NCBI GenBank assembly: GCA_025451655.1
Contig: JANWKA010000133.1
Location: 1 to 47,102 of the forward strand
Length of the DNA: 47,102 bases
Direction of reading: 5' to 3'
DNA from: Chitinophagaceae bacterium
GTDB lineage: Bacteria > Bacteroidota > Bacteroidia > Chitinophagales > Chitinophagaceae
Numbering within the stretch: the stretch's first letter is position 1; every line of letters begins with the position of its first letter. This document shows, piece by piece, positions 35,434-39,175 of this stretch. Below the pieces are notes generated by a model. It saw nothing but the letters and a program-made list of their open reading frames with translations, did no database searches and was not told the origin of the DNA. The translations under genes were made by a program, and so were the position numbers.

Positions 35434-38244
35434 TTATAGAAACGGCCCTGTCCGGCTTCCCCTGGCCTTTTTCAGCCCTCCCGGTATACCTTCATAAAGA
35501 ATTCTTCCACCTTCATCGCCGCCTTCCGGTCCCATTTCGATCACCCAGTCCGCAGCCCGGATGACATCCAGGTTATGCTCGATTACGATGATGGAATGGC
35601 CCTGGGTGATCAACGCCCTCAGGGAATTCAAAAGTTTTTCGATATCATGGAAATGGAGACCGGTCGTGGGCTCATCGAAAAGGAAAAGAAGGTGCTGGGT
35701 GGACCTCCCCCTTCCCAGGAATGCGGCCAGCTTGACCCGCTGGGCCTCCCCGCCGCTCAGGGTGGTGGAGGACTGGCCCAGCTTTACATAACCCAGCCCC
35801 ACGGCGGAAAGGGGCCGGAGGCGGGTCTGGATCTCCTTTTCGCCGGAGAAGAATTCAAGGGCTTCATCCACGCTGAGCTCCAGCACTCCATGGATGTTCT
35901 TCCCCTTGAAGGTGACCTCAAGCAATTCATCCTTGAACCTTTTGCCGCCACAGGCCTCGCAAACCAGGTGTACATCGGAAAGAAACTGCATCTCCACCAC
36001 CACTTCCCCTTCTCCCTTGCAGGTGTCACAGCGGCCTCCGTCCACATTGAAGGAAAAATGGCGGGCCTCAAAGCCCCGGATCTTGCTGAGGGGCTGGCGG
36101 GAATACAGGTCCCGGATCTCGTCATAGGCCTTGATATAGGTGACCGGGTTGGACCGCGAGGATTTCCCGATGGGGTTCTGGTCCACCAGTTCGACCTGTT
36201 CGATATCGTCCAGGTCACCTTCCAGTCCTTCATAATGGCCAGGTCTTCCTGCAGGTTCGCCCTTCGCCCTTTTCAGAGCCGGATAAAGGATCTGGCGGAC
36301 CAGGGTCGTTTTTCCTGAACCACTTACACCACAAACCACGCACAGGGTATTGAGCGGGAATTGAACGTCCACATGGTCCAGATTATGTTCGGTGCATCCC
36401 TTCAGGGTGATGGAACGGCTCCAGGCCCTGGACTTTTCCGGGATCGGAATGGCCATGGCCCCGCTCAGGTATTTGCCGGTGAGGCTCCGGGGATCTTTCA
36501 GGATTTGGGGGTAGGTGCCGCTGAAAACGATTTCGCCGCCCTGATAGCTGGCCAGTGGTCCCATGTCAATAATATGGTCCGCCTCCCGCATCATCTGTTC
36601 ATCATGTTCCACGACGATGACGGTATTGTCCAGATCCCGGAGCTGTTTAAGTACCCGGATGAGGCGGTGGGTGTCCCTGGAATGGAGGCCGATGCTGGGC
36701 TCGTCCAGGATATAAAGGGAATTGGTCAGATTGCTTCCCAGGGTCCGGGTCAGCTGGATCCGCTGGCTCTCCCCGCCGCTGAGGGTATTGGCTACCCGGT
36801 CCAGGGTGAGGTACCCCAATCCCACATCGATCAGGGTCGCCAGTCTCCTGGTGATTTCCATTAATATCCGGGCCGCCACTTTCCGGTCGAAAACGCTGAG
36901 GTCGAGGCCCTCGAACCATTCCTTCAGCTTCTGCACCGGCATCGCGACCAGGGCTGAAACGGGCTGGCCTCCCACCCGGACATAAAGGGCCTCCTTCCTG
37001 AGCCTGGAACCCCCGCAATCAGGGCAAAGGGTTTTGCCCCGGAACCGGGATTGCATCACGCGGTACTGGACCTTGTAAAGGTTTTGTTCCACCATCCGGA
37101 AAAATTCATTGAGGCCGGCGAAATAGGCATTCCCGGTCCAGAGCAGTTCGCGCTGATGCTGACTGAGGGTCAAAACGGGGCGATGGACGGGGAAATCAAA
37201 ACGATAGGCGTTGCGGAGCAGGGCTTCATTCCATTCCTTCATTTTTTCACCCCTCCAGGGAGCGATGGCCCCCTCATACACGCTGAGCCTGGGATCGGGG
37301 ATGACCAGTTCCGGATCAATTCCCAGGACCTGGCCGAATCCCTCGCAGACCGGGCAGGCCCCGAATGGATTGTTGAAGGCAAACATGTTGGGGCTGGGTT
37401 CCTGGAACTCCATCCCGTCCCGTTCGAACCGGTTGGAGAACGGGACCGGCTCTCCGATCCCCGTATCCAGCACGATCCTCCCCTCTCCTTCAAAAAAGGC
37501 GGCCTGGATGCTGTCGGAAATCCGGTGGAGGTCATCCTCTCCGAAAGGCCGGGTTACGATCCGGTCCACCAGGAGGGCGCTTCCCTTTTCCAGGACCGGG
37601 TTTTTCTCTTCCAGGAGGTCAGCGATCCTGGAGATCCCCTTTGCAGAATGATAAATCCTGGAAAAACCTTTTTGAACCAGGACAGAGAGTGCTTCCCTTG
37701 CATTGCTCCTGGAATGAAGATGGATGGGAACCAGCACCATCACCTTTGTCCCCTCCCCGAGTGCCTTGATATAATCCACTACATCGCTGCTCTCGTGTTT
37801 TTCCACCAACGCTCCCGAAACTGGCGAATAAGTCTTTCCCACCCTCCCGTAAAGCAACCGGAGGTAATCATAGATCTCGGTCATGGTGCCCACGGTGGAA
37901 CGCGGGGTCCTGCTGATGACTTTTTGTTCGATGGCGATGGCAGGGCAGATGCCCCGGATGAAATCCACATCGGGCTTGTTCATCCGGACCAGGAACTGGC
38001 GGGCATAAGCGCTCAGGCTTTCAGCATACCTCCGCTGGCCCTCCGCAAAAAGGGTATCCATGGTCAGGGAGGATTTACCGGACCCCGATACCCCGGTGAC
38101 CACGACCAGTTTACCTCTCGGAATGGTCACCGAAACATTCTTCAGGTTGTGAACCCGGGCGCCCTGGATATAGATTCCCGGTAATACCCGGATGGGAGGA
38201 TGGGATAATTCAGGGGAGGGTGTTGCCGCCTTTTTTGTTGCCAT
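35434..38244 (-). CDS. uvrA: Excinuclease ABC subunit A
   Basis: 936 aa; GVSGSGKSSLTMDTLFAEGQRRYAESLSAYARQFL; CPVCEGFG, CPDCGGSR and CDTCKGEGEV...CEACGGKRF zinc motifs; two ABC signatures. Confidence 0.98.
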   Translation of the reverse strand: MATKKAATPSPELSHPPIRVLPGIYIQGARVHNLKNVSVTIPRGKLVVVTGVSGSGKSSLTMDTLFAEGQRRYAESLSAYARQFLVRMNKPDVDFIRGICPAIAIEQKVISRTPRSTVGTMTEIYDYLRLLYGRVGKTYSPVSGALVEKHESSDVVDYIKALGEGTKVMVLVPIHLHSRSNAREALSVLVQKGFSRIYHSAKGISRIADLLEEKNPVLEKGSALLVDRIVTRPFGEDDLHRISDSIQAAFFEGEGRIVLDTGIGEPVPFSNRFERDGMEFQEPSPNMFAFNNPFGACPVCEGFGQVLGIDPELVIPDPRLSVYEGAIAPWRGEKMKEWNEALLRNAYRFDFPVHRPVLTLSQHQRELLWTGNAYFAGLNEFFRMVEQNLYKVQYRVMQSRFRGKTLCPDCGGSRLRKEALYVRVGGQPVSALVAMPVQKLKEWFEGLDLSVFDRKVAARILMEITRRLATLIDVGLGYLTLDRVANTLSGGESQRIQLTRTLGSNLTNSLYILDEPSIGLHSRDTHRLIRVLKQLRDLDNTVIVVEHDEQMMREADHIIDMGPLASYQGGEIVFSGTYPQILKDPRSLTGKYLSGAMAIPIPEKSRAWSRSITLKGCTEHNLDHVDVQFPLNTLCVVCGVSGSGKTTLVRQILYPALKRAKGEPAGRPGHYEGLEGDLDDIEQVELVDQNPIGKSSRSNPVTYIKAYDEIRDLYSRQPLSKIRGFEARHFSFNVDGGRCDTCKGEGEVVVEMQFLSDVHLVCEACGGKRFKDELLEVTFKGKNIHGVLELSVDEALEFFSGEKEIQTRLRPLSAVGLGYVKLGQSSTTLSGGEAQRVKLAAFLGRGRSTQHLLFLFDEPTTGLHFHDIEKLLNSLRALITQGHSIIVIEHNLDVIRAADWVIEMGPEGGDEGGRILYEGIPGGLKKARGSRTGPFL

Positions 38245-38421
38245 GGGGATGGGGGAATCCCGAATCCTCAGGATCCGGGGTTATCGCAAATGTAAGGCCA
38301 TAATGGTTTCGGGGGCGGTTCCGCAATCCATCATTCAACACATTGATAACAAATAGTTTGCAAATTTGGAAATGCGGTTCGGGAGCCGGAACGCAGGGTT
38401 CCTGCGTCAGGGGAAAATAAA

Positions 38422-38452
38422 ATTGGGAATTTTAACATTTCGTTTATATTTG
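38422..38452 (+). promoter_or_regulatory. Bacteroidota-type promoter for the ECF sigma gene
   Basis: ATTG (3/4 match to TTTG, 38422-38425) - N19 - TATATTTG (TAnnTTTG, 38445-38452); predicts a roughly 130-nt 5' leader. Confidence 0.65.
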
Positions 38453-38521
38453 CAAAACCTGTGATGTGACCACCGATCCTTCCCAGGCGATTTTTTCCGC
38501 AAATCCTACAAGCCTATAGCA

Positions 38522-38593
38522 AAAGTTCTACAAGAAGAATGACCGGCTCCCGCAGTCTGTTATCCATTCGTTAACCGAAATCTGTAGAACTTT
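38522..38593 (+). repeat. Perfect 11-bp inverted repeat in the ECF sigma 5' leader
   Basis: AAAGTTCTACA (38522-38532) and TGTAGAACTTT (38583-38593), separated by 50 nt; the 3' arm ends exactly before the ATG at 38594. Confidence 0.85.
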
Positions 38594-39175
38594 ATGCAAG
38601 CCACAGCTCCCGCATCCGACCAGGAATTAATTTGCCGCTACACCCAGGGCAAAGAAGAGGCTTTGATCGAATTGCTCCAAAGGCACAAGGACCGTTTATT
38701 TACGTCCATCGTGCTGCTGGTCAAAGACCAGTACCTCGCTGAAGACATCTTCCAGGATACCTTCATCAAGGTCATCGACACCCTGAGGGCCGGGAAATAC
38801 ACCGAAAAAGGGAAATTCCTTCCCTGGGCCATGCGGATCGCCCACAACCTTTGCGTGGACCATTTCCGCCGGATCAAACGGGCGCCGATCGTCAAAACCT
38901 CACAGGACAAGGATATTTTCAATGTGCTCCGGTTTGCCGAAAGTCATGCCGAAGAGCGTATGATTACCCGTCAAAGCCATGACCGGGTCCAGCAAATGCT
39001 GGACCTGCTTCCGGAAGAACAACGGGAAGTGATCATCATGCGCCATTACGCCGAGTTGAGCTTCAAGGAAATCGCGGAACTGACCCATGTAAGCATTAAC
39101 ACCGCCCTGGGGCGGATGCGTTACGGGCTGATCAACCTGAGAAAAATGATGGTGGAAAAACAAATCTGCCTCTGA
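38594..39175 (+). CDS. ECF-type sigma-70 family RNA polymerase sigma factor
   Basis: 193 aa; region 2 AEDIFQDTFIKVIDTLRAGKYTEKGKFLPWAMRIAHNLCVDHFRR; region 4 LPEEQREVIIMRHYAELSFKEIAELTHVSINTALGRMRYGLINLRK. Confidence 0.95.
   Translation: MQATAPASDQELICRYTQGKEEALIELLQRHKDRLFTSIVLLVKDQYLAEDIFQDTFIKVIDTLRAGKYTEKGKFLPWAMRIAHNLCVDHFRRIKRAPIVKTSQDKDIFNVLRFAESHAEERMITRQSHDRVQQMLDLLPEEQREVIIMRHYAELSFKEIAELTHVSINTALGRMRYGLINLRKMMVEKQICL

Follow-up and report, generated by a model that had tools for sequence, protein, structure and literature searches.

Does the inverted repeat in front of an ECF sigma factor gene of a Chitinophagaceae bacterium mark a translational switch and, if so, what would operate it? 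A first-pass annotation of the window (the whole 47,102-nt stretch of DNA analysed here) had described its arms, AAAGTTCTACA and TGTAGAACTTT, as a perfect 11-bp match with the 3' arm abutting the start codon, and this is accurate: the arms are 100% complementary, are separated by a 50-nt spacer and end directly before the ATG at 38594. The same annotation held that such an 11+11 match is unlikely by chance, and here we disagree, as a first-order Markov model predicts 1.3 pairs of perfect repeats of at least 11 bp (spacer 3-60) in 47 kb and the window contains three. The minimum free energy of the whole leader is ordinary as well (z = -0.75). The repeat as such is statistically unremarkable; what counts is its placement and its conservation with covariation, and the case below is therefore built on comparison rather than on the repeat itself.

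Within the window, RNA folding paired both arms and lengthened the helix by GCA/UGC pairs that flank a bulged A of the AUG, so that the sigma start codon itself would be enclosed by the helix. The predicted fold has the helix over the start codon region that is expected of a start-occluding translational leader hairpin. Rfam covariance models gave no match above threshold in the window except a tRNA, and matches at chance level only within 38246-38800; a known riboswitch or other RNA family was rejected on this ground. The features discussed in the text are collected in the table.

Table. Features of the sigma factor locus in the window.
Feature	Position	Strand	Sequence or composition	Basis and remarks
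UvrA-family gene	35437-38244	-		divergent, upstream of the sigma gene
Predicted Bacteroidota-type promoter	38423..38452	+	TTG 38423-38425, 19 nt, -7 element TATATTTG 38445-38452	sequence; consensus used for comparison from PMC7366714
Conserved leader block	38512..38531	+	GCCUAUAGCAAAAGUUCUAC; consensus [GC]CUAUHG(N)AUAAA-CUCUAC, also given as [GC]CUAUHGMAUAAA-CUCUAC	directly 5' of or overlapping the left arm
Putative mini-ORF, near-cognate start	38516..38542	+	AUA GCA AAA GUU CUA CAA GAA GAA UGA	initiation predicted from sequence
Left arm of the predicted start-sequestering helix	38522..38532	+	AAAGTTCTACA; extension GCA 38519-38521	sequence, folding, conserved pairing
Right arm	38583..38593	+	TGTAGAACTTT; extension TGC 38595-38597	complementarity to the left arm, also in relatives
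ECF sigma factor gene	38594..39175	+	193 aa	Pfam PF04542 (Sigma70_r2), PF08281 (r4_2); one close ortholog per genome across Bacteroidia

The gene behind this leader is widespread, with one strong ortholog in 60/60 relatives searched and an ortholog in 132 of the 149 Bacteroidia genomes sampled. Its Pfam domains bear out its assignment as an ECF sigma factor, and, as had also been stated, no anti-sigma gene follows it in the window: a cold-shock-domain gene in convergent orientation comes next, followed by a thiolase. On the other side, the divergent uvrA-sigma pair is retained in most of the Chitinophaga, Pedobacter, Mucilaginibacter, Hufsiella and Arcticibacter loci examined (Chitinophaga and Sphingobacteriaceae named loci), which suggests a shared control region or a linked function.

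We compared the leaders of these genes among 61 relatives, 80 named species (Chitinophaga, Pedobacter, Mucilaginibacter and others) and 60 further class-level genomes. This revealed a conserved block at the left arm, ending about 20-110 nt 5' of the sigma start. A two-part motif model found the block in 178/203 leaders, compared with 9% of shuffled leaders; a clear block was missing from 25/203. The block occurs once in the window's own genome. A strict pattern search of 20 relatives' genomes returned one sigma site each and a chance-like remainder, with sites elsewhere not exceeding a backwards-pattern control, and a regulon motif or DNA operator was rejected for this reason.

Transcription is predicted to begin well upstream of the block. 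The window carries a Bacteroidota-type promoter whose start site is expected a few nucleotides 3' of the -7 element, which would give a leader of about 130 nt. TAnnTTTG was found 5' of the block in 61/170 leaders, compared with 8% in shuffles, and in 0/171 leaders between the block and the ATG. The block itself was considered as a two-part promoter and rejected, as its halves lie about 10 nt apart with variable spacing and the Bacteroidota -7 element is located further upstream.

Base pairing joins the 3' half of the block to the sigma start region; the arms differ in sequence between species and sit before, across or just after the AUG. Against AAAGTTCTACA/TGTAGAACTTT in the window, relatives carry the compensatory pairs AAACTTTTA/TAAAAGTTT, ACTTCTAC/GTAGAAGT, AAACTACCC/GGGTAGTTT, AATACCTAT/ATAGGTATT and AGACGTTTACT/AGTAAACGTCT. 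In further pairs (CACGTCTAC/GTAGACGTG, CGCTAATTATT/AATAATTAGCG and GTACGCAT/ATGCGTAC) both the sequence and the exact position shift, yet the arms remain complementary and still cover the initiation region. The partner of the left arm is codons 4-8 in several families and spans the AUG in others, and the longest ungapped helices range from 5-6 up to 13 pairs across relatives.

Because our first alignment (A1) had put one left-arm column out of place, we relied on alignment-free tests, in which each left arm was scored against its own start region, those of other species and shuffled ones. Own pairing averaged -10.4 kcal in 99 leaders, compared with -7.6 kcal for swapped partners. Expected pairs numbered 13.0 for own partners, 8.2 for swapped and 6.5 for shuffled ones, and 151 of 171 leaders exceeded the swap mean. 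The ungapped score separated own from swapped partners at P = 3e-16 (P = 3e-8 with class-level families alone), and left-arm pairing was stronger for the start window than for coding sequence further 3' (P = 5e-13), all of these values being optimistic in that related sequences are not independent. In 50 model-aligned leaders, an alignment that was fitted to the structure and so leans towards it, two-sided changes occurred at 5 pairs together with 16 further pair types, neither of which was reached in any of 500 shuffles, and 87% of cells were paired versus 27-46% in slid versions. A covariance model built from 33 leaders recovered the sigma start in 10/10 of the best-scoring genomes outside the training set; for three weak matches (E > 0.15), the retrieved flank contained no sigma gene.

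These comparisons strongly support start occlusion by a predicted hairpin at class-wide scale, and indicate that the window's leader element represents a single instance of an ancient RNA hairpin that almost all of the class Bacteroidia has retained. The first-pass annotation had suggested that the mRNA leader acts as a translational switch, and the conserved start-region pairing, its covariation and its class-wide distribution argue for one. Covariation in relatives, which it had named as the check, takes the form of compensatory arm changes with partners that cross the start codon and remain in the initiation region. A transcription start 3' of 38532, which it had listed as evidence to the contrary, is not indicated, given the upstream -7 element and the 171 leaders devoid of one between block and ATG. 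The annotation overlooked the class-wide distribution and the block just 5' of the left arm, with its probable AUH mini-ORF.

It is this block that bears on what would open the hairpin. The AU at its AUH position is almost invariant and is followed by A, C or U but hardly ever by G: the codon is ATA in 109 of 171 leaders, ATC in 42 and ATT in 12 (163/171 AUH), and ATG in 3; all three AUG variants are 2-codon ORFs. Ten new genomes found with the covariance model had AUH in 10/10 cases. The frame that opens at the AUH usually spans 2-10 codons, and 72/171 leaders read AUH-NNN-stop. In most leaders, 16-18 nt separate the A of AUH from the C of CUAC at the end of the left arm, and an initiating ribosome has its leading edge this far downstream. 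Either the AUH frame itself or the footprint of a ribosome on it extends into the left arm in most leaders, as in erm-like attenuators. When the window leader was folded with a ribosome footprint placed on the AUA, the probability that the sigma start region is unpaired rose from 0.18 to 0.50.

The sequence 5' of the AUH likewise resembles an initiation site. In the non-SD leaders of the class set, A reaches 65% at -13..-11 versus a background of 35%, with a maximum of 42% elsewhere; adenines at -12/-13 are known initiation determinants in Bacteroidia (PMC9976891). GGAG is found at -12..-8 of the AUH in 35/171 leaders, including several unrelated families. Position -3 is C in 67%, and neither it nor -6 shows the adenine expected there. 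No conserved stalling peptide was found in the 171 leaders, the mini-ORF peptides being different and often two residues long, and no covariation of the AUH third base with another loop position was seen by eye. A reading of AUH as an Ile codon within a longer leader peptide was rejected, since an in-frame upstream ATG is present in only 22/171 leaders. The block looks like a ribosome-loading site for a probable mini-ORF. The conserved CC before U-AUH-G is unexplained by this assignment, and a protein or RNA contact could therefore account for part of the block.

Together, these observations lead us to propose, at even confidence, a cis-acting translational switch in the sigma leader that opens when a ribosome on the weak AUH start pushes the left arm aside. 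In the default state this arm would be paired with the start region of the sigma gene (-11..-1 and the start codon in the window) and would block initiation. Ribosomes would load, weakly, just 5' of that arm at a near-cognate AUH start, which in the window is the AUA at 38516-38518. A ribosome initiating there would cover the mRNA to about +16, which reaches the end of the arm's conserved CUAC, and would therefore displace the helix and expose the sigma start. The exposed start could then be taken by a second ribosome or by re-initiation. The ease with which ribosomes accept the AUH start would set sigma output, plausibly by way of IF3 or the state of the 30S subunit. The hairpin that encloses the start region, its covariation and the AUH block with its spacing are strongly supported by the sequence analysis; from them we infer initiation at the AUH, the resulting opening of the hairpin and a modulating signal. 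As the input of the switch we favour the ribosome over temperature, a ligand, a protein or an sRNA. The more general proposal, that throughout the class an obligatory near-cognate mini-ORF start (AUA, AUC or AUU) gates the hairpin and so places the sigma factor under the fidelity or state of translation initiation, is tentative, and we hold it at somewhat less than even confidence.

The main rival to AUH gating is a trans factor, either a dedicated RNA-binding protein or an sRNA, that would open the start-occluding hairpin by acting on UAUHG...CUCUAC, with AUH serving as recognition sequence only. The block is private to the sigma mRNA, as a dedicated binding site would be, its sequence is kept even where CUAC is unpaired (leaders L039, L040 and L043), and the conserved CC at -3/-2 is atypical of a start context. 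However, a ribosome better accounts for the exclusion of G from the third base, for an A-run or GGAG placed as in initiation sites and for the spacing of 16-18 nt, and an sRNA would be expected to hold the block fixed, yet the A/C/T position and the spacer vary. We consider such a factor unlikely, while regarding it as a serious contender.

An RNA thermometer, in which the hairpin would melt with temperature and need no further input, appears quite improbable. The enclosure of the start by a helix of 11-14 pairs and the retention of pairing while the sequence drifts would both suit it, but a conserved AUHG block at a fixed 5' distance would be superfluous for a pure thermometer. Ungapped helices that range from 5-6 to 13 pairs in different relatives would, in addition, have widely different melting points, and no Rfam thermometer family was matched.

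Control by bS21-deficient ribosomes, in which the right arm would be, or derive from, a Shine-Dalgarno sequence usable only without bS21, is very doubtful. Regulation of this kind is known for rpsU in Flavobacterium (PMC9976891). Many class-level families have a strong SD, AAAAGGAGGT, before the ATG as the sequence with which the left arm pairs, and among the nine genomes checked AAAGGAGG-N5-ATG is found at only 1-11 places. There is, however, no SD at this position in the window or in most Chitinophagales (GTAGAAC, GTAGAAG), and SD-like 4-mers precede the sigma ATG in only 36/171 leaders. The SD-bearing lineages connect the element to SD use by bS21-deficient ribosomes (PMC9976891), at least there.

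Least credible, to the point that we would be surprised to see either borne out, are an operator for a dimeric DNA-binding regulator, which had been raised as an alternative in the first-pass annotation, and a chance repeat: the repeat is perfect and 1.3 such pairs are expected in 47 kb, but the arms vary freely as long as their complementarity is kept, the partner shifts to codons 2-8 in several families, the motif occurs about once per genome and is not above control at other promoters, the promoter lies upstream, and chance is rejected by the conservation, the expected number alone being insufficient.

The switch with an AUH start that we prefer has partial precedents. In the translational attenuators of erm and cat genes, a ribosome on a short leader ORF displaces the hairpin arm that hides a downstream start. 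The sigma leader resembles them in that a leader ORF and its ribosome would move one hairpin arm off a downstream start, and differs in its AUH start, its often two-codon ORF, the lack of a conserved stalling peptide and a sigma target across a whole class. The start of enteric rpoS is hidden by a leader hairpin that is opened by the sRNAs DsrA, RprA and ArcZ; this too is a sigma mRNA hairpin over the start with a conserved 5' arm, although the conserved block described here resembles an initiation site. The infC gene, encoding IF3, has an AUU start that is autoregulated and IF3-sensitive, and shares with the sigma leader a near-cognate regulatory start, whereas here the AUH opens a mini-ORF upstream of the regulated gene. 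The extended SD of rpsU in Flavobacterium johnsoniae (PMC9976891) is likewise an initiation-site feature that selects a ribosome state, and some lineages' sigma genes have a strong SD; the element described here, in contrast, is a hairpin with an upstream AUH site, mostly without an SD. We found no description of this leader, or of sigma regulation by an AUH-start mini-ORF in Bacteroidota, in the open-access literature, a supplementary table of 64 structured 5' regions of Flavobacterium psychrophilum lying outside that coverage.

A conserved leader switch would explain how a sigma factor that is near-universal in the sampled Bacteroidia, and that has no adjacent anti-sigma gene in the window and at most loci examined, is restrained. 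If the AUH mini-ORF is used, transcriptional reprogramming would be tied to how well translation is initiated, in a phylum that largely dispenses with Shine-Dalgarno sequences, and the leader would provide a ready reporter of near-cognate initiation there.

Several features of individual lineages were also observed. A strong SD precedes the sigma start in several Bacteroidia families (leaders L156-L159, L177, L178, L183, L187, L190, L191, L196, L198, L202 and L203). In Porphyromonas gingivalis, transcripts of the type IX secretion regulator SigP (PGN_0274) begin about 60-99 nt 5' of its start codon (PMC4800418, PMC8265659); like the product of the window gene, SigP is an ECF sigma factor of 193 aa from the Bacteroidia. 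Some relatives carry small ORFs of 79-83 aa directly 3' of the sigma gene (L101:4748-4999 and L141:4670-4909), which resemble each other (31% identity over 70 aa), matched no Pfam family and possibly encode a small partner or anti-sigma protein that is absent from the window. A further conserved motif, CCAATATCC, lies within the element's loop in eight Chitinophagaceae leaders (L014, L016, L020, L024, L025 and L214-L216), and in the Chitinophaga leaders L073-L087 the loop holds a second small hairpin with compensatory changes of its own (GACT-gtta-AGTC, GACG-gcaa-CGTC).
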